NCBI GenBank assembly: GCA_024681275.1
Contig: JAILBD010000284.1
Span: 1 to 32,054 of the forward strand
Direction: 5' to 3'
Length of the DNA: 32,054 bases
Origin: Erysipelotrichaceae bacterium
GTDB taxonomy: Bacteria > Bacillota_I > Bacilli_A > Erysipelotrichales > Erysipelotrichaceae
In this document: positions 13,886 to 31,139 of the stretch, piece after piece
How the letters are laid out: every line of letters starts with the position of its first letter
How positions within the stretch are numbered: the first letter of the stretch is position 1
Program-made: the position numbers and the translations under genes
Notes under the pieces: generated by a model
Seen by the model: only the letters and a program-made list of their open reading frames with translations
What the model was told of the DNA's origin: nothing
Databases searched by the model: none

Positions 13886-15032
13886 TTTCCTTTCTGATCC
13901 TGACCAGTTCATTCTGAGCAAGGCCGAGAGAAGCCATCGAAGCCATCAGGGAAGATCCGCCCGATGAGATCATCAGAAGCGGAACACCGGTCAGAGGAAT
14001 GAGACCACTGACACCGCCAACATTCAATATGAAGTGCAGGATGAAATACATGAAGACACCCAGCAGGGCCATCTTTGAAACGGTCCTCTGCGCTCTGAGC
14101 GAAGCAGAAATGATCGGATACAGAAGCAAACCGTACAGGACGAGAAGTCCGACAAAGCCGACGATGCCAAGTTCCTCGACGATGACAGGCAGGATAAAGT
14201 CGTTTGAAGGGTTCGGGAAATTCATATACTTGTGAATGGAATTGCCGTAACCCAAGCCAAAAAGACCGCCATTGGCAAAGGACACCAGAGACATGATGAT
14301 GTGATAGCCGTTGTCATACTGGTAAAGGAACGGATCGGCAGCTGCAAGGAATCTGCCGACCATATAGTTGTCCGCATGTTTCTTGAGAAGCTCCGTAACA
14401 GGCGGAGACAGAACGATCAAAGCCAGTGCGACGACCCCTAAGACGATAAGAGTCATCCACCTTCTGTGTTTTTTCAGTTCCTTATACGGCGCGAGCATCG
14501 CCATGCAGTAGCACATGACGAAAAGCACGACCGCCGAACCCAGGTCGTGCTGAATGACGAGGATGATAAAAGTGTAGACCAGGGTCGCAGCAGCATAAGT
14601 CCAGAATCTGCTCGTGTTCTTCTCTTTCTGATCTCTGCCCAGAAGCCGGCAGGCAAATATGATCATGAAGACCTTCGCGAATTCCGAAGGCTGTATCGTA
14701 GCCCCGCTGCCGATCCAGATCCAGGCGTAGGCGCCGTTGATCTGACCGAAGAAACGACAGGCGATCAGTGCTGCCATGATGCCAAAATAAAAGACCCAGG
14801 CTAAGAATAAACGGATATTCTGGGCGGGGAAATTCATCAGAAAGAAATATGCGACAAGGCCTGCCGCACCATAGATGAGCTGTCTGGTGATGACTCCTGT
14901 CAGATAGGAAGCATCTCCGGCGCTGTTGCCCATCTCGGCTGAAGCGATCATCAGAGAACCGAATACCAGCAAAGCCAGTGCCGCAAAAGCGATACGTTTA
15001 TCACCAAAGGATATTTTCCCTCTCTTGGACAT
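13860..15032 (-). CDS. ftsW: SEDS-family peptidoglycan polymerase, FtsW-like
   Basis: A 390-residue polytopic membrane protein with about ten helices. The SEDS motifs are present: IQPSEFAK, FPNPSNDFILPVIVEELG (with the aspartate expected to be catalytic in glycan polymerisation) and GLIPLTGVPLLMISSGGSS near the C-terminus. The last motif fits FtsW or RodA; the link to rsmD-coaD favours FtsW, but this is not decisive. No Shine-Dalgarno is present before the ATG, and the next in-frame upstream codons include TAA, so this start is forced. The transcript is predicted to be leaderless. Divergent from def across a 42-base gap. Confidence 0.9.
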   Translation of the reverse strand: MSKRGKISFGDKRIAFAALALLVFGSLMIASAEMGNSAGDASYLTGVITRQLIYGAAGLVAYFFLMNFPAQNIRLFLAWVFYFGIMAALIACRFFGQINGAYAWIWIGSGATIQPSEFAKVFMIIFACRLLGRDQKEKNTSRFWTYAAATLVYTFIILVIQHDLGSAVVLFVMCYCMAMLAPYKELKKHRRWMTLIVLGVVALALIVLSPPVTELLKKHADNYMVGRFLAAADPFLYQYDNGYHIIMSLVSFANGGLFGLGYGNSIHKYMNFPNPSNDFILPVIVEELGIVGFVGLLVLYGLLLYPIISASLRAQRTVSKMALLGVFMYFILHFILNVGGVSGLIPLTGVPLLMISSGGSSLMASMASLGLAQNELVRIRKENDAEDHRG

Positions 15033-15038
15033 AAAATC

Positions 15039-15047
15039 ATTTTATCA
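15039..15047 (-). promoter_or_regulatory. Extended -10 six bases before the ftsW start codon
   Basis: TGATAAAAT on the minus strand, then GATTTT, then ATG. With a standard -10 position the transcript would start at the A of ATG. The gap to def also contains the palindrome ACAATTGT between the two start regions. Confidence 0.5.
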
Positions 15048-15059
15048 CAACAATTGTGG

Positions 15060-15068
15060 TATTATAAT
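15060..15068 (+). promoter_or_regulatory. TATTATAAT element six bases before the def start codon
   Basis: TATTATAAT, then AATGCT, then ATG. TATAAT at 15063-15068 puts +1 at the A of ATG (15075). If TATTAT with the TGG before it is used as an extended -10, +1 is 15072. Either way the leader is zero to three bases. Confidence 0.6.
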
Positions 15069-15074
15069 AATGCT

Positions 15075-15635
15075 ATGCTGATAAACAACGACACAATAAT
15101 CAAAGATGATGATCCACTGATCAGAAGAAAATCTGCTGATGTCGCTTTGCCTTTGTCCGATGAAGACAGAGAGATCCTTATGCAGATGCTCAAATATGTA
15201 GACGATTCCACGAACGAAGAGATCGCGAAGAAAGAGAATCTGAGACCGGCAGTCGGCATCAGCGCCATACAGATCGGCATCCCCAAGAAGATGACTGCCA
15301 TCATCATCAAAGACGAGGAAGGAAACAAGACCTGCGAATACGCGCTCGTCAACCCCAAGATCGTATCCAATTCCGTTGAAAAGGCATGTCTGGCAGCTGG
15401 TGAAGGCTGTCTTTCCGTCGTTGAGGAACATGAAGGTCTGGTCTATCGGTCCGCAAGAGTCAAAGTCAAAGCCTACGATGCTTTACAAAATAAAGAGATC
15501 CTGATCAAAGCCGAAGGATACCTCGCCATCGTCCTTCAGCATGAACTCGATCACTTCAAAGGGATCCTTTTCTACGACCATATCAACACAGCAGATCCAT
15601 TCTATACGCAGCCTGATACACTGGTTATTGATTAA
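15075..15635 (+). CDS. def: Peptide deformylase
   Basis: A 186-residue metalloenzyme that removes the N-formyl group from new proteins. Motif II is EGCLS (110-114, metal cysteine C112). Motif III is QHELDH (155-160, metal histidines H156 and H160, catalytic E157). Motif I reads GISAIQIG (61-68) where GxGxAAPQ is usual, keeping the glutamine but replacing the AP pair. The ATG at 15075 gives a normal type 2 N-terminus; the in-frame TTG at 15054 adds seven residues and lies upstream of the -10. There is no ribosome binding site. The RNase J gene follows with its own promoter. Confidence 0.95.
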   Translation: MLINNDTIIKDDDPLIRRKSADVALPLSDEDREILMQMLKYVDDSTNEEIAKKENLRPAVGISAIQIGIPKKMTAIIIKDEEGNKTCEYALVNPKIVSNSVEKACLAAGEGCLSVVEEHEGLVYRSARVKVKAYDALQNKEILIKAEGYLAIVLQHELDHFKGILFYDHINTADPFYTQPDTLVID

Positions 15636-15656
15636 ATCGGCTCTTTCGTTTAGAAT
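15628..15656 (+). promoter_or_regulatory. Promoter of the RNase J gene
   Basis: TTGATT (15628-15633), 17 bases, TAGAAT (15651-15656); the -35 overlaps the def stop codon. Predicted start near 15663, giving a 53-base leader with the repeats CATATATG and CATATG before GGAGGTTAA. Confidence 0.6.
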
Positions 15657-15715
15657 ATTTACATACTAAACAGAACAAAACATATCATTCATATATGTAA
15701 GCATATGGAGGTTAA

Positions 15716-17473
15716 ATGAACAATTTCACTACGCATTTTAGTCCGGGCGAATACAGTTCTTCGCGTGCCTACAGCGGTGCGAATTATGACCCGAAGAACG
15801 ATACTCTGGTCTATGCCCTCGGTGGACTCGGTGAAGTCGGCAAAAACATGTACTGTTTTGAACACGACGATGAGATCATCGTCATCGATGCCGGTGTCAA
15901 GTTTCCTGACGATGAACTGCTGGGTGTCGACTATGTCATCCCGGATTACACACATCTCATAAAGAATAAAGACAAAGTCAAGGCTCTGATCATCACCCAT
16001 GGCCATGAAGATCATATCGGCGGCATCCCGTTCCTGCTTTTAGCCTGCCCGATCAAAAAGATCTATGCACCTCGCTTTGCCAAGGCACTGATCGAAAAGA
16101 AACTATCTGAAAGAAGAAGACTTGCCAATACGCAAGTCATCGAAATAGACTGCGATTCTTCGGTACAGACCGATCATTTCCGTATCGGGTTCTTCAATAC
16201 CGTTCACTCGATACCGGATTCCCTGGGCGTCCTGATCAACACGCCAAACGGCAGGATCGTCGAGACCGGCGACTTCAAGTTCGACCTGACACCGGTCGGA
16301 CAAAACTCCGACTATCAGAAGATGGCCTATATCGGCGCAGCCGGTGTCACTCTGCTGATGTCTGATTCAACCAACGCCGAAGTGGATGGATTCTCGATCT
16401 CAGAGAAACAGGTCGCAGCAGCGATCAATGACATCATGCGCAAGACGAGCGGCAGGATCCTGATCTCTACCTTCGCATCCAATGTCAATCGTCTGGCACA
16501 GATCATCAAAGCGGCACAGAAATGCGGACGCAAAGTCGTCGTATTCGGACGATCCATGGAAAATGTCGTTGAGATCGGACAACAGATGAAAACGATCGAT
16601 GTTCCAGAGGATACCTTCCTCTCGCCGGAACTGGTCAACCAGTATCCACCGGAGAAACTATGTATCATATGTACCGGTTCACAGGGTGAAGCTCTGGCAG
16701 CCCTCAGCAGGATCGCCAACGGATCCCACAAATACGTCAAGATCATTCCTGGAGATACCGTCGTCTTCTCCTCAAGTGCGATCCCCGGCAATGCCCTCAA
16801 TATCGGCGGAATCGTCAATCAGCTGATGCGCAACGGTGCAAGAGTCCTTGAAAACAAAGCCCTGTCCTCGCTTCATACGACAGGACATGCATCCAAAGAG
16901 GAACAGAAACTGATGCTGCAACTGATCAAACCGAAGTACTTCATGCCCATGCATGGCGAATACAAGATGCTGAAGCTACATGCGGATTCCGCAGTCGAGA
17001 CAGGGATCCCGAAAGAAAACTGCTTCATCTGCGCCAACGGCGACGCGCTGGTCTTGCATGAGGGAGAAGTCTATCGTTCCAACACCAGGATACAGACCGA
17101 TGCGATCTATGTCGACGGCAACGATATTTCCGGACTTTCGACTTCTGTTCTCAAAGACCGTAAGATCCTCGCCGACAACGGACTGGTCGCAGTCGTCGTC
17201 TGCATCGATTCCCGAAGCAACAAGATCCTGTGCAAACCAGGCATCGTATCCAGAGGCTTCGTCTATCTCAAGGAATCACAGACCATGATCAGGGAAGCGG
17301 AATCCCTGGTCTATGAAGCGCTTCGAAACGCGATGCGTCAGAAGGTCACTTTCGGAGATCTGAAGAACTGCATCAAGAACACTCTGGAACCATTCCTTTA
17401 CGAAAAGACCAACCGCAACCCGATCGTGATCCCGGTCATCCTGAATCACGTCGATGCGCTCAAGAAAGACTGA
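15716..17473 (+). CDS. rnj: Ribonuclease J
   Basis: A 585-residue metallo-beta-lactamase/beta-CASP ribonuclease that degrades mRNA from the 5' end and cuts internally. The zinc motif HGHEDH is at 95-100; further ligands are H164, D186 (TGDF) and H413 (MHGEY). The beta-CASP part has MSDSTNA (215-221), SGRILISTFASN, and TTGHAS (388-393). It carries about 25 extra residues before the conserved core compared with typical RNase J1/J2. GGAGGTTAA precedes the ATG. J1 and J2 cannot be separated with only one copy in view. PNPase, the 3' exonuclease partner, is encoded at 27212-29443. Confidence 0.95.
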   Translation: MNNFTTHFSPGEYSSSRAYSGANYDPKNDTLVYALGGLGEVGKNMYCFEHDDEIIVIDAGVKFPDDELLGVDYVIPDYTHLIKNKDKVKALIITHGHEDHIGGIPFLLLACPIKKIYAPRFAKALIEKKLSERRRLANTQVIEIDCDSSVQTDHFRIGFFNTVHSIPDSLGVLINTPNGRIVETGDFKFDLTPVGQNSDYQKMAYIGAAGVTLLMSDSTNAEVDGFSISEKQVAAAINDIMRKTSGRILISTFASNVNRLAQIIKAAQKCGRKVVVFGRSMENVVEIGQQMKTIDVPEDTFLSPELVNQYPPEKLCIICTGSQGEALAALSRIANGSHKYVKIIPGDTVVFSSSAIPGNALNIGGIVNQLMRNGARVLENKALSSLHTTGHASKEEQKLMLQLIKPKYFMPMHGEYKMLKLHADSAVETGIPKENCFICANGDALVLHEGEVYRSNTRIQTDAIYVDGNDISGLSTSVLKDRKILADNGLVAVVVCIDSRSNKILCKPGIVSRGFVYLKESQTMIREAESLVYEALRNAMRQKVTFGDLKNCIKNTLEPFLYEKTNRNPIVIPVILNHVDALKKD

Positions 17474-17486
17474 CAAGCATAATAAA

Positions 17487-17520
17487 AGCCGCGATCCTGT
17501 ACAGGACCGCGGCTGTTTTT
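17487..17520. terminator. Bidirectional terminator between rnj and pfkA
   Basis: A long G/C-rich inverted repeat (AGCCGCGATCCTG / CAGGACCGCGGCT, one mismatch) followed by GTTTTT on the plus strand and TTTTATTAT on the minus strand. Confidence 0.85.
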
Positions 17521-17524
17521 CTAT

Positions 17525-18484
17525 TTAGACCAGTCTGTCAAAGAGCCTGTAGAAAGCTTTGCGGCTGCTTCTAGGCATCGAGACACATTCCTCGATAGGC
17601 ATGGAAACGATCTCGTTGTTCCTGATGCCGACACAGTGTCCGCCTATACCGGCGACCAGCAGCTCAACAGCTTTGGCGCCCATCCTTGAAGCCAGGACTC
17701 TGTCTGAAGGGCTGGGCGATCCGCCTCTTTGAATGTGGCCCAGGATCGTGGCTCTTCCGGCAAAACCGGTGACGCGGGAAATCTTGTCAGCCAGCGATTT
17801 GACATCGCACACTTTCTCTGAAACGATGACGATCGCGTGATTCTTGCCCTGATTCTCCAGATATCTGAGTTTTTCCAATACGGCTTCTTCATCGTATCCG
17901 GTCTCCGGTGTGATCAGGATCTCAGCACCGCAGGAGATGCCGGAATAAATAGCCAGGTCACCGCAGCGGTTGCCCATGACTTCGACGACCGAGCAGCGGT
18001 GATGGGAATTGGATGTATCTCTGAGCTTATCAACACATTCGACGACCGTGTTCAAAGCCGTATCGAAGCCGATCGTATAATCGGTCCCTTCGATATCGTT
18101 ATCGATGGTGCCCGGTAAAGCGATGCAATTCACACCATGTCTGGTCAACGCATCCGCGCCGCGGTATGTGCCATCTCCGCCGATCACGACCACCGCATCG
18201 ATGCTGTTCTCTTTCAGCTTGTTGACGCCTTTCATCAGGACTTCTTCATCCTTGAATTCCGGCAGTCTTGCTGAGCCAAGGATCGTACCGCCTCTGGCGA
18301 TCGTCTCGGAAACGGAATGCTTGTTGAAAGGTTCATAAAGCCCCTCGACCAGCCCCTTGTATCCATCGTGGATACCGACTACTTCGATCCCGTTAGCTAA
18401 AGCTGTTCTGGTGACGGCCCTGATAGCCGCATTCATACCAGGCGAATCTCCGCCTGAAGTCAATACGCCGATCTTTCTCAACAT
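17525..18484 (-). CDS. pfkA: ATP-dependent 6-phosphofructokinase
   Basis: A 319-residue glycolytic kinase, exactly the usual length. Motifs: LTSGGDSPGMNAA, IGGDGTYRGA (the glycine after GGD marks ATP rather than pyrophosphate use), PGTIDNDI with catalytic D128, and GHIQRGGSPS. I use the second ATG (18482-18484), which is eight bases after AGGAGG; the first ATG (18490) overlaps the dnaI stop but sits too close to the ribosome binding site. It is the last gene of the trmB-to-pfkA operon, an unusual home for a glycolytic gene. Confidence 0.96.
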   Translation of the reverse strand: MLRKIGVLTSGGDSPGMNAAIRAVTRTALANGIEVVGIHDGYKGLVEGLYEPFNKHSVSETIARGGTILGSARLPEFKDEEVLMKGVNKLKENSIDAVVVIGGDGTYRGADALTRHGVNCIALPGTIDNDIEGTDYTIGFDTALNTVVECVDKLRDTSNSHHRCSVVEVMGNRCGDLAIYSGISCGAEILITPETGYDEEAVLEKLRYLENQGKNHAIVIVSEKVCDVKSLADKISRVTGFAGRATILGHIQRGGSPSPSDRVLASRMGAKAVELLVAGIGGHCVGIRNNEIVSMPIEECVSMPRSSRKAFYRLFDRLV

Positions 18485-18486
18485 GA

Positions 18487-19329
18487 TCATCCCCTCCTCA
18501 TATTTTGACCTGATAATACGAAATTATCACTGAGTATATCTATTCTTTCCAGAAGTCTTCTGGCATTCATCAGATTTGATTTTTCCTTGCGGTCATACTG
18601 ATAGTGTTTCAGCAGTTCCTCTTTGTTCAGATTGGAAGTGAACATCGTGATCAGAGAATTCTCCATCCTGTGATCCAGGATCCTGAAGAGGATATCGTCT
18701 CTTACAAATTCCGACACCGTCTCAGAACCGATATCATCCAGGAAGAGATACCCGGCGTTTTTCAGGATCGAGATATTGCGGTCGATCATCTCTGACGCCG
18801 TACCGAAATAAGATTTCATCTCATTGAAGAAATTGGAGACCTTGACAAAAGCGACCTTCTTGCCTTTCTTGACCAGAGAGTTGGCAAGAGCCGTGCACAG
18901 ATAAGTCTTGCCGACACCCAGATCTCCGCAGATGTAGAGACCTCTGTCGCTCTTTTCATAAAGGATGGCTGCCAGTGCGAGATAGAGCTGCTTCTGCTCC
19001 GGAGCATATCGGACGTTGTTCAGATCGAGGTCTGCCAGATTCTTTGCCACATCGCAATACATGTATCTGTCTAAAACCGACTGCGAACTCCGCGCTTTCA
19101 AAGCGAATTCACAGTATTCGATCTCCTCGATCAGTACGCCGTCATTGGACAGACACAGTCTTTCACCGACCGAAGGCTGACTGCACTGGGCCAATCCCTG
19201 ACATCCTTCGCATTTTTTGCGTGAAGAAAGCACTCTTAAAAATGTGCCCAGATGTTCCTGCACGAATGATTCATCTTCAGCAAACCGTGAAAGGTATGCG
19301 TCTTCTCTGATCATCTCGGTCTTCGTCAT
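18487..19329 (-). CDS. dnaI: Primosomal helicase loader DnaI
   Basis: A 280-residue AAA+ protein that loads the replicative helicase on DNA. The N-terminal cysteine cluster CEGCQGLAQC (C40, C43, C49) fits the zinc-binding helicase-interaction domain of Bacillus DnaI. The AAA+ part has Walker A GDLGVGKT (135-142), Walker B LFLDDIG (195-201), sensor TSN (231-233) and an arginine pair at 257-258. Its ATG overlaps the stop of the DnaB-type gene as ATGA. Confidence 0.93.
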   Translation of the reverse strand: MTKTEMIREDAYLSRFAEDESFVQEHLGTFLRVLSSRKKCEGCQGLAQCSQPSVGERLCLSNDGVLIEEIEYCEFALKARSSQSVLDRYMYCDVAKNLADLDLNNVRYAPEQKQLYLALAAILYEKSDRGLYICGDLGVGKTYLCTALANSLVKKGKKVAFVKVSNFFNEMKSYFGTASEMIDRNISILKNAGYLFLDDIGSETVSEFVRDDILFRILDHRMENSLITMFTSNLNKEELLKHYQYDRKEKSNLMNARRLLERIDILSDNFVLSGQNMRRG

Positions 19330-20453
19330 TTCTTGCCCATCAGTTTAAGCAGTTCCTCTTCCTGAGAAGCGGACATCATCTTATTGCCGCTGTCGTCATA
19401 GACAGGAAGCTTATCTTCATCTTTATTCTTATTATACGGTCTCGAAAGCCTCTGCAGTGCATCTTTTGATGTCCTGACATCGTTGCGGTGCAGATCAGAA
19501 GCGATCGGATAGAGGTAATTCTCGATCAAACGGTTATCGCAGTTCTTCAATCCATGTGCCAGCAGGACGTTGATGACCGGTGGAACCAGGTGATACTTGT
19601 TGGCCAGATTGTATATGATCTTCTTATCATAATCCGTCACTTCCTTGCCCTCTTGCATAGACATCAGGAAGCTCACGCATGGAACGTCATACCTGTCGCC
19701 TTCAACGGCCTTGTAATCACTTTTGGCCCTCATGCAAAGATAACGCAGTTCTTTCAGATCGAATTCGTTGGAATCGATGCTTGCCACACGCGGCAGGAAA
19801 GTCCGCATCTTGTCATAAGAAATGTTGTAAAGATCAGCCAGAACGGCCATCTCTTTCAGATTTTCTCTGGTCCTGAAACGCATCGGAAGAAGGTTGGTCG
19901 AAATATCTTTCAGGAAGACATTGACATCAAAAAGCGTATTGAATTCGAAAGTCTGTTCATTGCTTCTCTTGAGATAGGATTCATCATCGGCTTTCCAGTT
20001 CCTGAGCGAATCAAGGGATAAAGTCTGAGAAACATCTTCAAAACCGCTGTGATCGCTTTCGACCTGGATGTCAGCGATCAGATCCTGGTAGTGTTCCCCA
20101 GAAGTCTTAAGTATAAAATCTCTGACCAGGATATCATCTTTGATGAACTGTCTGATCTCCATCGGATTATGGAAGACGAAGATATAACGGTTCTCCTGTC
20201 TAAGGGTCTTGAGCAGCCTGTATTCGTTCAGTTTCAGGCAATAGAATTCAAAATCATCGATGGAAAGATTCAGTGAGATCAGAAGTTCATTGATCTCGCG
20301 AAAGCCGATACTGCTGCCCCTGAGGACCATGTATTCATACATCGCCAGAGCATCATTTCCGATCAATGGCCCATAGAAAAAAACCAGAGAGCGTAATCTC
20401 TCTGCTGATATCTCGGCATTGATCTCTGCTTTATAAAAATCTTTTCCTAACAT
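19326..20453 (-). CDS. dnaB: Replication initiation / membrane attachment protein, DnaB-DnaD family
   Basis: A 375-residue primosome protein of the Gram-positive type (not the E. coli DnaB helicase). It helps DnaD and DnaI load the helicase at the origin and restart sites. The N-terminal winged-helix region begins LGKDFYKAEINAEISAERL; the C-terminal DnaB_2/DnaD-like helical domain is near residues 265-350 (KKIIYNLANKYHLVPPVINVLLAHGL). It is shorter than Bacillus DnaB. Sequence divergence is high, so identification leans on the helical domain and the adjacent dnaI. It overlaps coaE by seven bases (ATGTTAG). Confidence 0.83.
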   Translation of the reverse strand: MLGKDFYKAEINAEISAERLRSLVFFYGPLIGNDALAMYEYMVLRGSSIGFREINELLISLNLSIDDFEFYCLKLNEYRLLKTLRQENRYIFVFHNPMEIRQFIKDDILVRDFILKTSGEHYQDLIADIQVESDHSGFEDVSQTLSLDSLRNWKADDESYLKRSNEQTFEFNTLFDVNVFLKDISTNLLPMRFRTRENLKEMAVLADLYNISYDKMRTFLPRVASIDSNEFDLKELRYLCMRAKSDYKAVEGDRYDVPCVSFLMSMQEGKEVTDYDKKIIYNLANKYHLVPPVINVLLAHGLKNCDNRLIENYLYPIASDLHRNDVRTSKDALQRLSRPYNKNKDEDKLPVYDDSGNKMMSASQEEELLKLMGKK

Positions 20454-21007
20454 TTCAATTCATTGAGCCATTCATCTATGAGCTGATAAAGGTCATTCAG
20501 ACTACCATTATTATAAATGATTTTATCTGCTCTTTTGGCTTTTTCCTCTACGCTCATCTGATCATTCAGACGTTCCATCGCCTCTTTCGCACTGAGGCCT
20601 CTTTCCTGAAGTCTTTCGATCAGAAGATCATAGTCTGTCACAACCAGAAGGTTGTGATCGAAATAGACATCCCAATCAACTTCAAAAAGAAGCGGGACCT
20701 CCGCAAACAAAGGGTCATCCTCTCTTTCAAAAAGTCTCTTCAGGATCAGAGGATGCATGATCCCCTCCAGCTCTTTTCTGGCCTCCTCGTCGTTGAAGAC
20801 CACCGAAGCGAGCTTCTTCTTGTTCAGCTCTTGCGCATCAAAGCAGTCGGGAAAGGCCTCTTTGATACGCAGATAGCCTTCCTGGTCCTTCTCCAGCAGT
20901 TTCCGGTTCTCATAGTCGCAGTCAAAAACATCATAGCCCTTAGAAGCCAGATACTGACAGACCATGCTTTTGCCCGAACCGATCGAGCCCGTGATCGCGA
21001 TCTTCAT
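20447..21007 (-). CDS. coaE: Dephospho-CoA kinase
   Basis: A 186-residue P-loop kinase for the last step of coenzyme A synthesis. P-loop GSIGSGKS at 8-15; the CoA-binding lid and motifs EVPLLFE and RLNDQMSVEEKAKRAD are typical. It overlaps mutM upstream by ATGA and the DnaB-type gene downstream by seven bases, so translational coupling is likely. The placement polA-mutM-coaE is common in Bacillota. Confidence 0.95.
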   Translation of the reverse strand: MKIAITGSIGSGKSMVCQYLASKGYDVFDCDYENRKLLEKDQEGYLRIKEAFPDCFDAQELNKKKLASVVFNDEEARKELEGIMHPLILKRLFEREDDPLFAEVPLLFEVDWDVYFDHNLLVVTDYDLLIERLQERGLSAKEAMERLNDQMSVEEKAKRADKIIYNNGSLNDLYQLIDEWLNELKC

Positions 21008-21813
21008 CTTTTCTGACAGACCTCACAATAATAGGTACCGCGTCCACCCACTCTGATCTTCCTGATCTTCGATGAACAGACCGGACAGACTTCCATCGCA
21101 TGGGCACGCAGCGACATCTGAAAACGCCCTGTCACACCCAGTGAAGAAGTATAGGAACGGATCGTCGTTCCTCCCGCTTCTATCGCCGCATTCAGAATGA
21201 GACGGGTCTTGTCGATCAGGTTCCTTATCTCGTCATCAGAAAGATCATTCGCTTTGCGTTTCGGATTCACGCCGATGGCAAAAAGGATCTCGTCGGCATA
21301 GATGTTGCCGATACCGGCAACGAAACTCTGATCCAGAAGGACTTCCTTGATCGGGATCCTCTTCTTATTCAGATAATCACGGCAGTATGGCAAAGAAAAC
21401 GCATCCCAGAAAGGTTCAGGTCCCAGATCCCTGAACTGTTTATAATCTTCTTCTTTCTTCATCAGTTCCATCCTTCCGAACTTACGGACATCGTTATAGC
21501 GAAGCTGCCTTCCGTCTTCAAGATCAAAGATCACATGATCGTGTTTGTTGAGCGGAACACCATCATCGAGGATGAAATATTTGCCTTCCATCCTGAGATG
21601 AGAGACCAACGTCACATCATCCATTTCAAAAAGCAGATATTTTCCTCTTCTTTTGAAATCACGGAAGTGCTGGCCGATCAGAGTTTTCTTAAAAACATCC
21701 TCGTCTTCATCGATGATCTTCTTGCAAAGGATGGAGATATCTTTTATTTGCGCATCCCTGATCTGATACGCCAGTGTATCAAGGACGGTTTGAACTTCAG
21801 GAAGTTCCGGCAT
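21004..21813 (-). CDS. mutM: Formamidopyrimidine-DNA glycosylase
   Basis: A 269-residue repair enzyme that removes 8-oxoguanine and FaPy and cuts the strand by beta/delta elimination. The catalytic N-terminal proline and E3 are seen in MPELPEV; the lysine K58 lies in KRRGKYL. The zinc finger is C243-x2-C246-x16-C263-x2-C266, ending CEVCQKR. It starts within the polA stop codon (TAATG). Confidence 0.96.
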   Translation of the reverse strand: MPELPEVQTVLDTLAYQIRDAQIKDISILCKKIIDEDEDVFKKTLIGQHFRDFKRRGKYLLFEMDDVTLVSHLRMEGKYFILDDGVPLNKHDHVIFDLEDGRQLRYNDVRKFGRMELMKKEEDYKQFRDLGPEPFWDAFSLPYCRDYLNKKRIPIKEVLLDQSFVAGIGNIYADEILFAIGVNPKRKANDLSDDEIRNLIDKTRLILNAAIEAGGTTIRSYTSSLGVTGRFQMSLRAHAMEVCPVCSSKIRKIRVGGRGTYYCEVCQKR

Positions 21814-24386: not shown

Positions 24387-25424
24387 CTATTCACCTTCCG
24401 TTTGGATCTCCTGGATCTCATTATATGTGCTGCTGCTGTTGGAAGCAGCAATGCTTTCAAGAACGCTCAGATTCTCATACATAAGCGACAGATAGTCTTT
24501 TCCGGATTCGATCTGCGCATTGCTCAAAGAAGAGATGTTGTGCATCGTGATCCTCTTGAGCCCAAGCTCCTCTTCCAGACGGACCATCAGATTCAGCATC
24601 TCATCCGTCATGTTCGACTCATACACGATGAAACGCACGTCATCGTTTCTGATCCTGTTCTTGATCGCCTCAAGCTGCGCCTCGCTTGGCAAAGCTCCAT
24701 ATTTGGACAGACAGACCGGATAGACCTGAAAACCGAAGTCCTTCTGCCAGCAGCCGAAAGACCCGGTCATGGAGACGAACTTGATGTTCTTATTTTCCTT
24801 GACGAGCCTTGTCGCCAGTGCCTGATAGGATGCATCCAGAGCGATCAGATCATCCGCCACCTGCTTGTAGTTCTCTGTAAAGTAGGAAGACTGCTCGACA
24901 TAGTTGTTGGAAAGATACTCATAGACATCCTTTGCCATACAATACATGCCGCTTGGAGAAAGCCAGATGAACGGATCCAGATCGTACGTATCCAGATCGG
25001 CAAAGACATCGCCTTCATAGTATGGCCCTTCCACATAGGATACAGAACCATTGACGATGACCGGCATATATCTCTTGTATTCGTAAAGACAGTTCAGAAC
25101 GGAAAGATCGCCTGCTGAGAGGTCGATACCCAGTTCCTTTATCTTGTCGGAATACAGGTCCATATAAGGTTCCAGATCGCCGATATGGAAAAGGACGGAA
25201 GAATCTTTCACCACTTCTTCGTAGTCATCCACCAGATTGGCGCACTGGACCAGCGTGCGGTTCTGGATCGAGACCGCCTCGATCCTGTTTCCGCCTATCC
25301 TGTTCAATAGATAGCCGATCGGATAGATAGTATATGCTGTAAAACGCTTGCTGGAAGTGCAGCCGCTCACAAGCAGTAGCACCAGCAGGACAGCGACCAC
25401 TTTCTTAATCAATTTCATACTCAC
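24387..25424 (-). CDS. ZnuA-like lipoprotein lacking the metal-binding histidines
   Basis: A 345-residue secreted lipoprotein with lipobox VSGC (Cys22). The fold pattern is that of the cluster 9 metal receptors (ZnuA/adhesin): YTIYPIGYLLNRIGG, DLEPYMD, DPFIWLSP and ESNMTDEMLNLMVRLEEELGL. At three positions where the family has histidine ligands I see none: no histidine in 52-70, F152 in place of the DPH histidine, and T220 in the MTGSFGCW segment. E269, the fourth ligand region, is kept. It probably does not bind zinc in the usual way. The start is GTG (25422-25424) with AAGG upstream; an ATG lies two codons later. It sits between trmB and polA with no permease or ATPase. Function unknown. 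Confidence 0.8.
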   Translation of the reverse strand: MSMKLIKKVVAVLLVLLLVSGCTSSKRFTAYTIYPIGYLLNRIGGNRIEAVSIQNRTLVQCANLVDDYEEVVKDSSVLFHIGDLEPYMDLYSDKIKELGIDLSAGDLSVLNCLYEYKRYMPVIVNGSVSYVEGPYYEGDVFADLDTYDLDPFIWLSPSGMYCMAKDVYEYLSNNYVEQSSYFTENYKQVADDLIALDASYQALATRLVKENKNIKFVSMTGSFGCWQKDFGFQVYPVCLSKYGALPSEAQLEAIKNRIRNDDVRFIVYESNMTDEMLNLMVRLEEELGLKRITMHNISSLSNAQIESGKDYLSLMYENLSVLESIAASNSSSTYNEIQEIQTEGE

Positions 25425-25427
25425 TCA

Positions 25428-26039
25428 TTATACCTTATCGATCTGATATTTCGCATAGTAGATCGGCTTACCCTCGGCTGTAAATTTCGCCTGATACGCC
25501 GTCATCGGCTCACCTTGCGCATGATAATCTCTGCTGACATCAAGAAGTCTGAACTCAGAAGCCTCGAAATATGTCAGGGAGTCATCATAGAAGCCTTCAT
25601 TATCTGTCTTCAGGACCAGGATGCCCTGATCCTTCAGGACCTTGGCATAGCTTTTCAGGAAAGGCGGATATGTGAGTCTTCTCTTGTGATTGCGCTTCTT
25701 TGGCCAGGGATCCGAAAAATGAAGATAGATCAGGTCGAGACTGTTCTCTTCGCAGAGTTCCTCGATGTTCATCGCATCTGCCAGTATCACTTTGAAGTTG
25801 TTCAACGCAAGATCCCGGGCTTTTCTGATCGCTCTGGCAACACAGGTCTCTTCCCTTTCGAGTCCCACATAGAAGATCTCAGGGTGCAGAGCTGCTGACT
25901 GTGTGATGAAATCGCCCATTCCCATGCCGATCTCGATATACAGCGGCTTCTCGGTCCTGAATCCGTTCAGGTCTTCGATCAGATATTCTTTCTCATTTTC
26001 AAGAAATGAAGGCACCCATTTCTTTTTCCTCATTCGCAT
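25428..26039 (-). CDS. trmB: tRNA (guanine-N7-)-methyltransferase
   Basis: A 203-residue enzyme that makes m7G at position 46 of tRNA. It shows a SAM motif IGMGMGDF, the TrmB signature HFSDPWPKKRNHKRRL, and KTDNEGFYDDS near the end. It is the first gene of the operon reaching pfkA. No ribosome binding site precedes the ATG at 26037-26039 or the in-frame ATG two codons later. The TATTATAAT element lies six bases before the first ATG. Confidence 0.95.
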   Translation of the reverse strand: MRMRKKKWVPSFLENEKEYLIEDLNGFRTEKPLYIEIGMGMGDFITQSAALHPEIFYVGLEREETCVARAIRKARDLALNNFKVILADAMNIEELCEENSLDLIYLHFSDPWPKKRNHKRRLTYPPFLKSYAKVLKDQGILVLKTDNEGFYDDSLTYFEASEFRLLDVSRDYHAQGEPMTAYQAKFTAEGKPIYYAKYQIDKV

Positions 26040-26045
26040 ATTTCT

Positions 26046-26054
26046 ATTATAATA
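26046..26054 (-). promoter_or_regulatory. TATTATAAT element six bases before the trmB start codon
   Basis: TATTATAAT, then AGAAAT, then ATG on the minus strand. +1 would be the A of ATG. No TTGACA-like -35 is found at 16-18 bases. The same palindromic core gives TATAAT (26048-26053) for the divergent peptidase, whose predicted start is near 26060. Confidence 0.6.
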
Positions 26055-26090
26055 CTATGTAGGTCGAGAACCTGAAAAAAGGAGCATCTC

Positions 26091-27164
26091 ATGAACAAAG
26101 AAAGAATCACAAATGTCCTCAGCAGACTTGAAAACGCCGATGCCGTTCTGGTGTCCGATCCGATGGCGATCAGATACCTGTGCGGTGAGATGATCTATCC
26201 CGGTGAAAGATTCCTGGGCCTGCTGCTCAAGCGCGGGCAGGATCCTGTCCTGTTTCTGAACATCCTCTTCCCTATGCAGGAGATAGAAGGTCTAAAGATC
26301 GTCAGTTATGCCGACGGCGATGACCTCAATGAGCTCCTGTCGTCATATATTTCTAAAGATGAAGTCCTTGGCATTGACAAGACTTTTCAGGCGAGATTCC
26401 TGCTTCCCATGCAGAAATACGGCCTGGCTAAAGACTACGTTGACGGCTCTCTCGCAGTCGACAAGACCAGAGCGGTCAAAGAAAAGGAAGAGCTGGAACT
26501 GCTGAGAAGATCTTCACAGATCAATGATGCAGCCATGGCGGAATTCAAAAAGCTGATCCATGAAGGCGTCAGTGAGAAACAGATCGCATCAAAATGCCTT
26601 GACATCTATAAGAGACTCGGCGCTGATGGTTTCTCCTTCTCTCCGATCGTCGCGTTCGGAAAGAACAGTGCCAATCCGCATCACATGCCTGATGATACGA
26701 TCCTTCAGGAAGGCGATGCCGTTTTGTTTGATGTGGGCTGCACCTATAGAGGTTACTGTTCCGATATGACCAGGACCTTCTTCTACAAAAAAGCGCCGGA
26801 AGGCAAACGGAAAGAGGTGTATGAACTTGTCCGCAAAGCCAATGAAGAAGCGACCGAAAAAGTGAAAGCCGGTGTCAGGCTCTGTGATATCGACAAGACA
26901 GCCAGAGACATCATCATTGAAGGAGGCTATGGCAGGTTCTTCACCCACCGACTGGGGCATTTCATCGGACTGGAAGATCACGAATATGGCGATGTATCAG
27001 CCGCCTTCAAAGATCTTTGCGAGATCGGCAATGTCTTCTCGATCGAACCGGGCATCTATGATCCGGACAGTCTGGGCTGCAGGATCGAGGATCTTGTCGT
27101 CGTGACAGAAGAGGGCTGTGAGGTCCTCAACAGCTATCCGCATGATATAGAGATCATCTGCTGA
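26091..27164 (+). CDS. M24 family Xaa-Pro aminopeptidase/dipeptidase
   Basis: A 357-residue two-metal peptidase that removes residues in front of proline. The pita-bread ligands are all present: D214 (LFDVGC), D225 (CSDMTRT), H290 (THRLGHFIG), E319 (SIEPGIY) and E333 (RIEDLV). The N-terminal creatinase-like domain covers about residues 1-125. AAAAAAGGAGCATCTC precedes the ATG. It is a one-gene unit ended by a strong hairpin. PepP and PepQ types cannot be told apart safely. Confidence 0.92.
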   Translation: MNKERITNVLSRLENADAVLVSDPMAIRYLCGEMIYPGERFLGLLLKRGQDPVLFLNILFPMQEIEGLKIVSYADGDDLNELLSSYISKDEVLGIDKTFQARFLLPMQKYGLAKDYVDGSLAVDKTRAVKEKEELELLRRSSQINDAAMAEFKKLIHEGVSEKQIASKCLDIYKRLGADGFSFSPIVAFGKNSANPHHMPDDTILQEGDAVLFDVGCTYRGYCSDMTRTFFYKKAPEGKRKEVYELVRKANEEATEKVKAGVRLCDIDKTARDIIIEGGYGRFFTHRLGHFIGLEDHEYGDVSAAFKDLCEIGNVFSIEPGIYDPDSLGCRIEDLVVVTEEGCEVLNSYPHDIEIIC

Positions 27165-27177
27165 AACAGAAAAAGAA

Positions 27178-27207
27178 ATGGCGATGTCAATGACATCGCC
27201 ATGTTTT
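27178..27207. terminator. Bidirectional terminator between the M24 peptidase gene and pnp
   Basis: Inverted repeat ATGGCGATGTCA / TGACATCGCCAT separated by one base (effective loop a few bases), followed by GTTTTC on the plus strand and TTTCTTTTTC on the minus strand. Confidence 0.8.
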
Positions 27208-27211
27208 CTTA

Positions 27212-29443
27212 TCAGTCTTTTTTGCCGAAGAACCTGATCTCACCGAAAGTCTTTTTCTTTTCTTCTTTCTTCTCTTCAGGAGCTTCTTCAGTCTTGGCTT
27301 CTTTCTTGTTTTCTTTCTTATTTTCTTTCTTGTTCTGCTTCTCTGGTTTAGGCAGCAGTTCCTTTGCGGAAACGTTGACTCTGCCCTTTTCATCGATCTC
27401 CATGACCTTGACTTTGATCCTGTCACCGATCTTCAGAACATCTTCAGGCTTATCGACTCTTTCATGTTTGATCTTGGAAACATGAAGCAGTGCGTCAGTT
27501 CCCTTGAACAGTTCAACGAAAGCGCCGAATTTCTCAAGTCTGACGACAGTCGCATCATAGATCTCGCCGACCTTTGCTTCTTTGGTGATCTCATCGATCA
27601 TCGCTTTAGCCTTCTCGATCGCTTCCTTGGAAGTATGATAGATCACGACCTTGCCGTCATCGTCGATGTCGATCTTGACATCATCACATTTCTCGATGAT
27701 ATCGTTGATGACCTTGCCACCTGTACCGATGACTTCTCTGATCTTGTCAGTCGGGATCATGAAAGTGACCATCTTAGGTGCATACTGGCTGACTTCTTTT
27801 CTCGGTTCAGCGATCGCTGTAGCCATGTTGTCAAGGATCTGCATCCTTCCCTCATGAGCCTGAGCGAGAGCTTCCTTGAAGATCTCTCTTGTGATGCCTT
27901 TGCACTTGATATCCATCTGCAGAGCAGTGATACCTTCTCTGGTGCCTGCAACCTTGAAGTCCATATCGCCATAGTGGTCTTCCATACCCTGGATGTCTGT
28001 CAGGATCGAGTAATTATCACCAGTCGTGATCAGACCCATCGCAACACCTGCGACCGGAGCCTTGATCGGAACACCGGCTGCCATCAGCGACATGGTGCCT
28101 GCACAGATCGAAGCCTGTGAGCTTGAACCGTTGGACTCCACGACTTCAGCAACTGTTCTGATCGCATACGGGAATTCTTCTTCTGAAGGAAGGACCTGGA
28201 GCAGTGCTCTTTCGCCAAGAGCGCCGTGACCGATCTCTCTTCTGCCTGGAGAACCCATCCTGCCGACTTCGCCGACTGAATAAGGCGGGAAGTTGTAGTG
28301 GTGCATGAAACGCTTTTCTTCGACTTCCGTCAGGTCATCGATGATCTGATTATCACCCAGAGGACCTAAAGTCGTTACGGAAATGACCTGTGTCTGGCCA
28401 CGGGTAAACATGGCTGAACCATGGACACGCGGTAAGAGGTCGACCTGTGAATTCAGAGGTCTGATCTCGTTGAGCGCTCTGCCGTCCGGTCTGATCTTCT
28501 CTTCGGAAACGAGTCTTCTGACTTCTCCGGCGATGATCTGTTCACAGTATTCGCCTGTCTGCTTGACCAGTTTATCGGATTCTTTTTCGCTCAGTTCTTC
28601 ATTGGAAGCGAAGTGTTCCTTCATCTCGTTGGTGATGGATTCCTGAGCGGCATATGATTCCAGCTTGTCGTGGATCGAAACAGCTTCTTCAAGTCTGACC
28701 TTGCCATTGGCATTGACATAATCCTTGACGCGCGGATCGATCTCATAGAGGACGACTTCCATCTTCTCTTTGCCGACCTTGGCAATGATCTGTTCCTCAA
28801 ATTCACAGAGTTCTTTAACTTTTTCATGACCGAACATCAGCGCATCCAGCATGAGGTCTTCATCGACTTCCTTGGCGCCTGCTTCGACCATGTTGAGAGC
28901 TTCCTTGGTACCGGCAACAGTCAGGTCGATCAGGGATCTGGATGTCTGTTCGACAGTCGGGTTGACGACGAACTGTCCATCGACGTAGCCAACTTTGACG
29001 CCAGCGATCGGGCCATCAAACGGGATATTGGAGATACAGATCGCCAGTGATGCGCCTAACATCGCAGCCATCTCCGGAGAACAGTCGGTATCTGTTGACA
29101 AAACAGTGTTGACGACCTGAACTTCGTTACGGAAACCTTCTGCGAAAAGAGGACGGATCGGTCTGTCGATCAGCCTTGCAGTCAGAGTTGCATGTTCGGA
29201 AGGCCTTCCTTCTCTTCTCAGGAATCCGCCAGGGATCTTGCCTACCGAATAAAGCTTTTCTTCAAAAGATACAGTTAACGGGAAAAAATCTGTGTCCTTA
29301 GCGACACTTGAGGCACAGGCGGTCGACAGTGTGACTGTATCGCCATACCTCACCAGTACAGACCCTCCGGCCTGTTTAGCGATCTCACCGGTCTCGATGC
29401 TTAACTTACGACCGTAGAAATCTAAATCAAATACTTCTTTCAT
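27212..29443 (-). CDS. pnp: Polyribonucleotide nucleotidyltransferase (PNPase)
   Basis: A 743-residue phosphorolytic 3' exoribonuclease. It has two RNase PH-like domains (about 1-215 and 300-550), a KH domain ([20 protein letters not shown], about 555-620) and an S1 domain (about 620-690). The C-terminal tail of about 45 residues is a low-complexity Lys/Glu segment with a KKEN repeat. This tail is an addition to the usual core and may bind RNA or a partner. The ATG has only a purine-rich weak ribosome binding site (AGAGAAAAGTAAAGA). Confidence 0.97.
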
Positions 29444-29481
29444 TCTTTACTTTTCTCTTCTTTCTTAATTTCAACCTATAC

Positions 29482-29490
29482 ATTCTAACA
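29482..29490 (-). promoter_or_regulatory. Extended -10 promoter of pnp
   Basis: TGTTAGAAT on the minus strand (TGN-TAGAAT), predicted start near 29475 and a 32-base leader. No clear -35. Confidence 0.45.
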
Positions 29491-29504
29491 TAGAAAAGGT
29501 GAAA

Positions 29505-29579
29505 ATGCCTAATAATAAGGATAATTCCGCGCTGTTATCGTTGATCATAGCCTCTTTATCCGCATATTTTTTCTTCTGA
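29505..29579 (+). CDS. Candidate 24-residue single-helix membrane peptide
   Basis: A short ATG frame reading MPNNKDNSA followed by a hydrophobic run LLSLIIASLSAYFFF to the stop (TGA 29577-29579). AAAAGGTGAAA lies directly upstream, a strong ribosome binding site at a slightly short distance. A polar start followed by one helix is the usual plan of small membrane proteins. It lies in the gap between divergent pnp and the FemABX-like gene, 50 bases before the latter. A promoter is not clear. Without comparative data it could be a chance frame. Confidence 0.45.
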   Translation: MPNNKDNSALLSLIIASLSAYFFF

Positions 29580-29614
29580 TTCAACAAGGCGGTTCCAATG
29601 TTGCGGAAAAAATA

Positions 29615-29623
29615 TATTATAAT
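29615..29623 (+). promoter_or_regulatory. TATTATAAT element six bases before the FemABX-like start codon
   Basis: TATTATAAT, then GAACTT, then ATG at 29630. +1 would be the A of ATG. No ribosome binding site and no good -35. Confidence 0.6.
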
Positions 29624-29629
29624 GAACTT

Positions 29630-30619
29630 ATGAAGCTTCATGAGACTGATGTGAAACATTTCAATGATCTGGCAAAGGCGGAACCTGATTCCACCATCTA
29701 TCAGACTTCCTTTTGGTCAGACTACATGGTCGCAAAAGGATATGATGCCGCTTTTCTGGAAGCGACGGATGATCAGGACATCTGCCAGGGACTGACTCTC
29801 CTGCTGATGAAAAAGGAATCAGTCTTTTCAAGAGGCCTGAGTGCCTATGCGCCATACGGTATCCTGTTCAATTACTATGACGGGTCCTCATTCAGGCAGT
29901 TCCATGAACTTTTCGTCGGCTATCTGAAACAGAAAAAAGTCAACAAGCTGATCATCGAACCGCAGGTCGATGCAGACAACAGGAAGATATGCAAGCTGCT
30001 GGAAGAACTCGGTTATGAGAAAGAAAGCGATCTTTCCGTCTTTGAAGTCTTCCCGGATCATCATGTCAACGCCATCTCCGATCCCAATGTCATACTGAAG
30101 ATCAGATGCGAAGACAATGCTGCGACACTGAACAAACTGGCTGAAAAGAACGATAAAGAAAATCTGAAGATCTATGAGAATCTGAAAGGCCACGCCCTCA
30201 ATTACATCGCACAGCTTGACTGTTTCAAAAGCAGAAGAGCGATCGAAGAGAGTCTGACTGCTCTCAACGACTATGTCAGCGAACATAAGGACGATTACAA
30301 ATTCGTCGAGGATGTCGCAGAGAAAGAAAAACAGATCTCCGATCTGAAAAAACTTTTCAACACCATCATCAGATATGAACAGAAGTATTCCCAGGATCCG
30401 GATATCGCCGCCTATTGCGTGTCCCTTTTCTCTGACAAGAGCACCATCATGTTCAGATTAAGCAGCGATAAAGATGATCTTTTCCATGCAGAAAAAGAAA
30501 TTATCGATCAAATTTGTGCAGACAGCCTCAATCGTGGTATCATAAGAGTCGATTCAGGTGAAAGATTCTGCTACAGCAGCGAAAGAAAGCTCATCGGCAG
30601 ATACGTCCTGAAGATCTGA
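29630..30619 (+). CDS. FemABX-like aminoacyltransferase, divergent
   Basis: A 329-residue protein resembling the Fem family, which transfers amino acids from aminoacyl-tRNA to the peptidoglycan stem peptide. N-terminal GNAT-like half: TIYQTSFWSDYMVAKGYD, AYAPYGILFNYYD and KLIIEPQVDAD match the Fem patterns QSxxW, YxPRGP and KIDP. A helical coiled-coil arm follows (about residues 185-250, with FVEDVAEKEKQISDLKKLFN). The last 80 residues are poorly matching, and the usual C-terminal substrate-site motifs are not evident. It may be inactive or have a different acceptor. The stop codon is one base before tRNA-Thr. No ribosome binding site; predicted leaderless. Confidence 0.7.
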   Translation: MKLHETDVKHFNDLAKAEPDSTIYQTSFWSDYMVAKGYDAAFLEATDDQDICQGLTLLLMKKESVFSRGLSAYAPYGILFNYYDGSSFRQFHELFVGYLKQKKVNKLIIEPQVDADNRKICKLLEELGYEKESDLSVFEVFPDHHVNAISDPNVILKIRCEDNAATLNKLAEKNDKENLKIYENLKGHALNYIAQLDCFKSRRAIEESLTALNDYVSEHKDDYKFVEDVAEKEKQISDLKKLFNTIIRYEQKYSQDPDIAAYCVSLFSDKSTIMFRLSSDKDDLFHAEKEIIDQICADSLNRGIIRVDSGERFCYSSERKLIGRYVLKI

Positions 30620-30620
30620 C

Positions 30621-30696
30621 GCCGACTTAGCTCATCAGGTAGAGCAACGCACTCGTAACGCGTAGGTGGTAGGTTCAAGTCCTATAGTCGGCACCA
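30621..30696 (+). tRNA. tRNA-Thr (anticodon CGT), CCA encoded
   Basis: A 76-base cloverleaf. Acceptor GCCGACT / AGTCGGC, D stem GCTC / GAGC, anticodon loop CTCGTAA (anticodon CGT, reads ACG), T arm GTAGG-TTCAAGT-CCTAT, and ACCA at the end. The anticodon stem ACGCA / CGCGT has an A-C mismatch at the loop-closing pair 31-39. It starts one base after the FemABX-like stop codon and shares its terminator, so the two are likely co-transcribed. Confidence 0.95.
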
Positions 30697-30707
30697 TTTA
30701 TAAAACA

Positions 30708-30738
30708 AGATCCCGTTTATCAACGGGATCTTTTTTTC
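30708..30738 (+). terminator. Terminator of the FemABX-like/tRNA-Thr unit
   Basis: AGATCCCGTT, loop TATC, AACGGGATCT, then seven T. The opposite-strand stop codon of the small membrane protein gene (30720-30722) lies at the loop, and the T-run is the antisense of that protein's basic tail. Confidence 0.85.
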
Positions 30739-31124
30739 CTCTTTTTATCTTTTTTTTCGTCTCTGATCGTCAGGATCGAGATCATGAACAGGATACCGGA
30801 TACGATCATGATGATGCCCATGGTGTTCATCAGATCTGACTTCCCCTTGAAGTATAGGGTGAGATAACCGCTCAGGATCTCAAGAAGTCCGGCAAAACAC
30901 AGGATCCCCTTCGTATTGAAGGTGATACCGAATATGCCGCTGATGATGTTGATGCCCGGAATGATGTAGATCGACAGACGCAGCAAAGTCGCTTCAAAAT
31001 CCGTGCCCGGCAGGATGCGCATGATGATCGGATCGTTGTCGAACTGGTAAGCCACCGCAAAATACATGATCACGGCAATGACCAGTTCGCTCACGGATAT
31101 GAATGCTGCGATCTTTCTGTTCAT
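30720..31124 (-). CDS. Small four-helix membrane protein of unknown function
   Basis: A 134-residue protein with four predicted membrane segments (about 7-27, 48-68, 72-92, 99-119) and a strongly basic C-terminal tail EKKDKKRKKRSR, expected inside the cell. I do not recognise the family. It starts nine bases after truA but has no ribosome binding site; TATTAGAAT lies six bases before its ATG. It ends in the loop of the convergent tRNA terminator. Confidence 0.75.
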   Translation of the reverse strand: MNRKIAAFISVSELVIAVIMYFAVAYQFDNDPIIMRILPGTDFEATLLRLSIYIIPGINIISGIFGITFNTKGILCFAGLLEILSGYLTLYFKGKSDLMNTMGIIMIVSGILFMISILTIRDEKKDKKRKKRSR

Positions 31125-31130
31125 AAGTTT

Positions 31131-31139
31131 ATTCTAATA
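31131..31139 (-). promoter_or_regulatory. TATTAGAAT element six bases before the membrane protein start codon
   Basis: TATTAGAAT, then AAACTT, then ATG on the minus strand. It overlaps the truA stop codon (TAG at 31134-31136). The geometry is identical to that at def, trmB and the FemABX-like gene. Confidence 0.5.

Follow-up and report, generated by a model that had tools for sequence, protein, structure and literature searches.

We analyzed a window of 32,054 bases (contig JAILBD010000284.1 of assembly GCA_024681275.1; 47% GC) from a rumen-type member of the Erysipelotrichaceae, in which several genes carry a −10-like hexamer, TANAAT, exactly six bases before the start codon and are predicted to be transcribed without a 5′ leader. 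The window holds a series of housekeeping genes, among them hrcA-grpE-dnaK-dnaJ-clpB, ftsW, def, the gene for RNase J1, polA, trmB and truA. An earlier note on this DNA had singled out five such sites, and all five were found at the positions and on the strands that it gave (Table 1). The exact form TATTATAAT-N6-ATG occurs three times in the window and in none of 100 shuffled versions, and the relaxed form TANAAT-N6-ATG occurs five times against 0.97 expected, a count reached by one of the 100 shuffles. The base before ATG is T in all five, as the note had said. Its statement that these genes have no Shine–Dalgarno (SD) sequence was borne out by four, which show no match of four or more bases; ftsW has one four-base match (GTGA), but this sits at its −10 and upstream of the predicted transcription start. 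That most other genes have a strong SD is roughly right only at the looser cutoff, with 17 of the 23 others matching at least four bases and 12 at least five.

Table 1. Features of the window discussed in the text, with positions counted from its first base
Feature	Position	Strand	Remark
Putative −10 TATAAT of def	15063..15068	+	6 bp before ATG (15075); predicted +1 is the A of ATG
def, peptide deformylase, predicted leaderless	15075..15635	+	TIGR00079
Putative −10 TAAAAT of ftsW	15039..15044	-	6 bp before ATG; preceded by TGTGA (extended −10 like)
ftsW/rodA-family gene, predicted leaderless	13860..15032	-	Best model TIGR02614, below its curated cutoff
Putative −10 TATAAT of trmB	26046..26051	-	6 bp before ATG
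trmB, tRNA (guanine46-N7)-methyltransferase, predicted leaderless	25428..26039	-	TIGR00091
Putative −10 TATAAT of FemABX-like gene	29618..29623	+	6 bp before ATG
FemABX-like gene, predicted leaderless	29630..30619	+	PF02388, 1.7e-8
TAGAAT upstream of small gene, the weakest of the five sites	31131..31136	-	6 bp before start; overlaps the truA stop codon
Small gene, possibly leaderless or coupled to truA	30720..31124	-	
Palindrome ATTATAAT at def	15061..15068	.	Putative def −10 on +; on -, a mirrored TATAAT (15061-15066) is oriented toward ftsW at distance 28
Palindrome ATTATAAT at trmB	26046..26053	.	Putative trmB −10 on -; mirrored TATAAT (26048-26053) faces a peptidase gene at distance 37
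TATAAT before ZnuA-like gene	25427..25432	-	8 bp before ATG (third codon of the open reading frame from 25424); possible 2-nt leader

Genome-wide counts were made in relatives of the window organism, chosen through the PolA protein of the window, which matched eight contigs titled as Erysipelotrichaceae or Solobacterium metagenome-assembled genomes, several of ruminant origin, at 73 to 86% identity. The eight relative genomes (G001 to G008) all fall within one genus group, comprising 36 genomes in the later counts. Across the eight, the pattern TATTATAATN{0,24}ATG gave 120 matches, 40 of them at a gap of 6 and an average of 3.3 at each of the other 24 gaps, and a T preceded the ATG in 33 of the 40 gap-6 matches compared with 23 of the 80 at other gaps. 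The genome-wide peak at a fixed distance, named by the earlier note as the check on its proposal, was strong in the relatives.

At the gene level, we combined the window with 1.19 Mb of sequence from three relatives, called genes with a simple script (1,160, of which 28 are in the window) and scored the distance from TANAAT to starts within 90 bases of the first start of the open reading frame (ORF). The distances to ATG were bimodal: 75 genes at 6, 25 at 7, 23 at 8 and 11 at 9 were followed by 3 to 8 per position at 10 to 17 and then by a broad hump of leadered genes at 20 to 32, while internal ATGs scaled to an equal number gave 0 to 2.7 per position. GTG provided nine more starts at distance 6 and TTG none, and the start was the first of its ORF in 54 of the 84 distance-6 genes. 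By relative, 22 of 374, 36 of 391 and 21 of 367 called genes have TANAAT at exactly 6. The peak corresponds to a TANNNT-like −10 beginning with a T about 12 bp upstream of the start codon, the positional mark of leaderless genes. No common function was apparent in 30 proteins scanned out of the 79 distance-6 genes outside the window.

The bases around the start codon carried a second signature. Of the 84 distance-6 genes, 82 have a pyrimidine at −1 (T in 79%, C in 19%), as do 52 of the 54 that begin at the first start of their ORF, the figure across all first-ATG genes being 58%. The T before ATG therefore resembles the pyrimidine expected at −1 if transcription starts on the A of ATG. At distance 7, the pyrimidine tends to lie one base upstream, with a pyrimidine–purine step at positions 6 and 7 after the hexamer (Y6R7) in 15 of 28 genes, and at distance 8 it is shifted two bases upstream in 16 of 24. 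These shifts are as expected if the polymerase starts seven bases past the hexamer and produces leaders of 1 and 2 nt. At distance 8, a pyrimidine also directly precedes the start codon in 21 of 24, making a start at the A possible as well. The distance-8 starts in the relatives favor the form YGT-ATG, with G at position 7 in 67% and T at position 8 in 88%. Among leadered promoters, Y6R7 was found in 98 of 201. SD matches of at least four bases were present in 8% of distance-6 genes compared with 74% of those at 20 to 32.

Initiation without an SD does occur at AT-rich starts in many bacteria (relevant passages of PMC5397173), and the genes could have ordinary leaders made from promoters further upstream, with TATAAT being part of an unstructured leader. 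That model predicts neither one fixed distance, nor the −1 pyrimidine of 82 out of 84 genes, nor the valley at 10 to 17; moreover, the divergent start codons of def and ftsW are 42 bp apart, so that a leadered promoter would have little space outside the coding sequence of the partner gene. We consider it very unlikely.

Among close relatives, the upstream sequences diverge while the −10 and its 6-base distance are kept. The −10 stands at N6 in 6 of 6 def orthologues (one as TATATT), 8 of 8 trmB orthologues (one as TACAAT) and 6 of 6 ftsW orthologues, two of which start with GTG, and the FemABX-like gene has an identical element and spacer in the three orthologues found (L003, L004 and L007). 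The fifth gene, for which Pfam and NCBIfam scans gave no match at the thresholds used, shows spacings of 6, 6, 7 and 7 in the window and three relatives and is for this reason a weaker case. Among reciprocal best hits on the sampled contigs, a distance of exactly 6 was kept in 23 of 33 directed pairs; each pair was counted both ways, so that the counts lack independence, and five were weak matches near 30% identity. Leadered genes kept their exact −10 distance in 13 of 80 directed pairs. Overall, the adjacent −10 is kept within close relatives and lost or replaced in many distant ones. An open extension of seven codons upstream of def was considered as coding sequence and rejected, its codons differing between relatives when compared by eye.

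The def gene provided the clearest view of such replacement. A def match was present in 146 of 148 genomes of the order, and we read the 30 best loci. A −10 at distance 6 to 8 was seen in 12, none of which has an SD of five or more (one has a match of four), while the other 18 have an SD of at least four and a −10 at 15 or more or none seen; L104, one of these 18, is ambiguous, as a TATTAT stands six bases ahead of its def start. The position of the start codon is constant across the 30 loci, and the −10 at 6 to 8 and a strong SD exclude each other. This makes def a natural experiment, in which the distance of the promoter and the SD switch together between species. The same comparison bears on the idea that the start codons are wrongly assigned, translation in truth beginning further downstream after a short leader. 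Such an error is conceivable for trmB, in which a second in-frame ATG follows six bases in (MRM...). Distant relatives, however, use the identical def ATG with an SD at normal distance, protein similarity reaches residues 1 to 3 in many distant def relatives, and TTG is never found at distance 6, making a general misassignment of starts barely credible.

Across the order, use of the motif is patchy and not universal. The pattern TATAATN5TATG occurs 4,192 times in the 148 genomes, compared with 2,552 times when placed six bases further apart and 1,878 times when reversed; 21 genomes are individually significant after Bonferroni correction, and the ratio is at least 3 in 44. Among 195 genomes sampled from the phylum, some small ones also strongly exceed the reversed pattern (e.g., 42 versus 3 and 33 versus 3). 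One genome of the phylum sample (G275) has 124 reversed-control matches and 6 forward ones, presumably reflecting a repeat family, and two of the order sample (G049 and G070) have no motif matches and no def or trmB match, possibly being misplaced or contaminated assemblies.

A TTGACA-like −35 (at least four of six bases) was present in 20% of distance-6 promoters, no better than the 12 to 21% of shifted controls, in line with the poor −35 described by the earlier note; the figure for leadered promoters was 31%, against 13 to 23% in their controls, and the −35 scores of the two groups did not differ significantly (Mann–Whitney p 0.28). Two details of the note were not supported. One is TATTATAAT as the unit, since any TANAAT serves. 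The other is the extra TAT as a replacement of the −35: TAT precedes TANAAT in 11 of the 84 leaderless promoters and in 13 of the 201 leadered ones, with T at −15 in 57 and 53%, respectively. A −35-independent class with an extended −10 was considered for the leaderless group and rejected, as TG at −15/−14 was not enriched (13 of 84 versus 52 of 201 leadered; p 0.06); among the five genes of the window, ftsW alone has it.

Transcription through the adjacent −10 could be real and yet secondary, with the main transcript being leadered or read through from an upstream gene and translation being coupled. For the small gene at 31124 this has some force: it follows truA on the same strand after a gap of 9 bp, and the site at 31131-31139 overlaps the truA end, with TAGAAT or TAAAAT across the stop codon in the window and the relatives. 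Read-through within an operon is for that reason a fair rival there. A mirrored TATAAT, at distance 28, also faces ftsW. The gene order is against it elsewhere: the upstream neighbor is divergent for trmB, def, ftsW and the FemABX-like gene, and the same is true of 52 of the 84 distance-6 genes, compared with 66 of 177 leadered genes and 254 of all 1,160. We give a merely secondary role of the adjacent −10 a small chance.

The explanation that we favor, and hold to be very probably correct, is that the start-adjacent −10 directs a leaderless mRNA beginning at the first base of the start codon. The element would be an ordinary −10 hexamer of the housekeeping sigma factor, TANAAT and at best TATAAT; RNA polymerase would start seven bases past it at a pyrimidine–purine step, the purine of which is the A of AUG or the G of GUG; and the mRNA, having neither leader nor SD, would be translated through 5′-AUG recognition. 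That the RNA begins at the start codon, which sigma factor acts and how translation proceeds (70S or 5′-AUG) we infer from features read in the DNA, namely the fixed distance, the signature at the start, the choice of start codons, the absence of the SD, the conservation in orthologues and the trade-off with the SD. For def, trmB, ftsW and the FemABX-like gene, no other reading comes near that of a leaderless mRNA; for the fifth gene it is less certain. The family of leaderless mRNAs proposed by the earlier note is thus upheld by the distance peak, the missing SD, the orthologues and the bases at the start site, and loses the replacement of the −35. The near-absolute pyrimidine at −1 suggests selection for a start precise to a single base.

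Several points weigh against this conclusion. The start sites are predicted from sequence, and the genome-wide counts all come from relatives. The gene caller and the choice of starts were home-made, and 30 of the 84 distance-6 starts lie 6 to 78 bases inside the longest ORF, so that some start assignments may be wrong. Of the 28 directed orthologue pairs above approximately 45% identity, two have the −10 at 7 and three have none at 6 to 9. In trmB, distance 6 was seen in only 9 of 30 order loci read, these including two at approximately 39 to 44% identity, and the ratio in the order survey is below 1.5 in 52 of the 148 genomes. Finally, the missing −35 signal is a negative finding, and the motifs concerned are weak.

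The divergent setting gives the element a further property. TATTATAAT contains the self-complementary ATTATAAT and can thereby provide a −10 on both strands. At def, the mirrored TATAAT may be used by ftsW; at trmB, its counterpart on the plus strand may act as a promoter for the SD-bearing peptidase gene starting at 26091; at the FemABX-like gene, the divergent gene is too far away for a mirrored −10 (about 172 bp by coordinates). A mirrored −10 was found in 16 of the 84 leaderless promoters and in 25 of the 201 leadered ones, with no significant difference. A close divergent neighbor was present in 12 of the 16 leaderless promoters with a mirrored −10 compared with 28 of the 68 without, and in 17 of 25 leadered promoters with one compared with 37 of 176 without.

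On the sampled contigs, we found divergent pairs in which both genes have the −10 at distance 6 and the start codons are 20 to 22 bp apart. The palindromic −10 elements (ATTATAAT and ATTATATAAT) could then serve both strands, and some divergent pairs of the genus would be separated by nothing but a two-way leaderless promoter. The exact 22-bp unit, CAT-N6-ATTATATAAT-N6-ATG, occurs at 10 sites in 7 of the 148 order genomes, all seven belonging to the genus of G002, with no match of the reversed control. In the 36 genomes of that genus, the relaxed form CAT-N6-ATTNTANAAT-N6-ATG gave 38 sites in 28 genomes, again with no reversed match. Of these, 33 were exact, and both ATGs opened ORFs of at least 60 amino acids in 27 of the 27 read (in two, a frame runs off the end of the fetched locus), the chance level being 27% for a random ATG and about 7% for both sides. 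Of the five degenerate sites, four were read and one has both ORFs. Outside the genus, the exact unit was found in 5 of 392 phylum-sample genomes and has both ORFs in two of the five.

The sites read fall into seven types of gene pair: ung-folC (10), a nucleotidyltransferase gene, which we take to be TmcAL/YlbM-like, paired with a gene without an NCBIfam hit that is presumably YceD-like (9), murE with a 1-phosphofructokinase-like kinase gene (3), one type of two and three of one. Sites within a type are homologous, and the independent evidence therefore consists of seven types out of seven. Among the 30 folC loci of the genus, ung was present in 28, with start codons 20 bp apart in 2, 22 in 11, 23 in 10 and 24 to 36 in 4, and one locus broken by Ns. 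In the 27 readable loci, ung has its −10 at 6 in all but one, which has it at 8; that of folC lies at 6 in 13, 7 in 12, 8 in 2 and 11 in 1 of the 28.

Perfect dyads between divergent genes are the classical form of an operator, and ATTATAAT and ATTATATAAT could be binding sites of a small dimeric regulator instead of mirrored −10 elements. The palindromes are, however, made of the −10 consensus, the 6-base spacing and the pyrimidine–purine step recur on each side (a pyrimidine before 53 of 54 starts at the exact sites read), an exact palindrome with N8 on each side was found in 0 of the 36 genus genomes, and no shared function is evident for the named gene pairs. Operators in place of promoters seem unlikely to us. 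We regard it as probable that the genus has a gene-pair device in which a self-complementary 10-bp double −10 (ATTATATAAT), with six bases on each side followed by a start codon, would start two divergent leaderless mRNAs 23 bp apart from a 22-bp intergenic region, without room for leaders, SDs or regulators. As RNA polymerase holds one orientation at a time, the two genes, such as ung and folC, would share and compete for one promoter. If true, these 22 bp would suffice to express two genes, an exceptionally compact unit that bears on minimal genomes and on the choice of orientation by the polymerase.

A 20-bp counterpart, CAT-N6-ATTATAAT-N6-ATG, was rejected as an order-wide unit because its support was weak: 17 of 148 genomes carry it, at 18 sites in all, the reversed control gave 4 sites, and it has ORFs of at least 60 amino acids on both sides in 2 of the 17 sites read. 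Both ORFs being so rarely present, its matches look mostly like chance occurrences in AT-rich genomes. It looks real for trmB in G003 (149 and 203 amino acids) and for ung-folC in two genus members, and is doubtful in L001, where one side opens 43 amino acids.

Bidirectional promoters are characterized by −10 elements that overlap on the two strands in the space between divergent genes, as was found at the genus loci. The passages of PMC12825309 on Escherichia coli report separations between transcription start sites of 18 bp and also of 10 and 23 bp; for the 22-bp unit, the spacing predicts 23 bp. The arrangement resembles the bidirectional promoters of Warman et al. (relevant passages of PMC12825309 and PMC10268837) in that one symmetric −10 region would be used in both orientations, and differs in that both outputs are predicted to be leaderless, making the promoter the entire 22-bp intergenic region, and in that upstream contacts would fall inside the partner's coding sequence. 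The word "leaderless" is absent from the main texts of both papers. The combination of leaderless starts and a shared symmetric −10 was not found in our searches of open-licence papers, and a two-way leaderless promoter would be a new variant.

The start-adjacent −10 itself is a real, conserved and genome-wide feature of the sequence, best read as a known kind, leaderless genes, in a lineage for which we found no reports. The genes show the tested sequence features by which Zheng et al. (2011; PMC3160421) recognize leaderless genes, the start at +1 being predicted: in the relevant passages of that work, the first T of the −10 is approximately 12 bp upstream of the start, no SD is present and the Firmicutes form is TAtAAT. 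The passages on Deinococcus radiodurans in Zhong et al. (2025; PMC12340547) similarly place the −10 about 6 to 7 bp before the ORF. A TG-extended −10, described for Lactococcus in the pertinent part of Zheng et al., is not enriched here (13 of 84), and a further difference is the −1 pyrimidine, nearly absolute here. The earlier note had called such genes not typical of Bacillota, which is partly right: according to the passages of Zheng et al. on this phylum, leaderless genes were predicted in 56 of 209 Firmicutes genomes and concentrated in Lactobacillales and Mycoplasma. The string "erysip" is absent from the main text of that paper and from that of PMC4782308, whose passages on Cappable-seq of gut bacteria give 10 to 15% leaderless starts in Akkermansia and Bifidobacterium. 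Among other Bacillota and Mollicutes, relatives only in a broad sense, leaderless mRNAs have been measured in Enterococcus (13 and 10 genes, below 1%; passages of PMC7724050), Mycoplasma gallisepticum (nine transcripts; passages of PMC4245973) and Mesoplasma florum (nine genes expressed from start-codon start sites; passages of PMC7745072), whereas the share predicted here is several percent. Erysipelotrichia are placed among the SD-using classes in passages of PMC10783764 that do not treat their leaderless genes. Our searches of open-licence papers turned up nothing relevant on Erysipelotrichia with leaderless genes or on leaderless promoters acting both ways, and no transcription start-site mapping in Erysipelotrichaceae. 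On the present predictions, the Erysipelotrichaceae would join the Bacillota lineages with many leaderless genes.

Three further observations concern the window. The TATAAT in front of the ZnuA-like gene is built from the end of trmB (Lys-Val-stop) and recurs at this junction in 8 of 8 relatives, 7 to 9 bases from an ATG when read by eye; it is possibly an internal promoter with a short leader. An AT-rich near-palindrome with TATATAAT is shared by two genes that diverge from each other at 2161-2195, with 33 bp between them. There, a TATAAT directly abuts the ATG at 2195 (distance 0) of a gene for a cyclic-nucleotide-binding-domain protein, and the opposite gene has an SD; probably the start is misassigned or the −10 serves the opposite gene only. 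Finally, an inverted repeat of the type TTAGCACT...GTGCTAA, presumably CIRCE-like, precedes clpB at 8020-8046, and another lies near hrcA.

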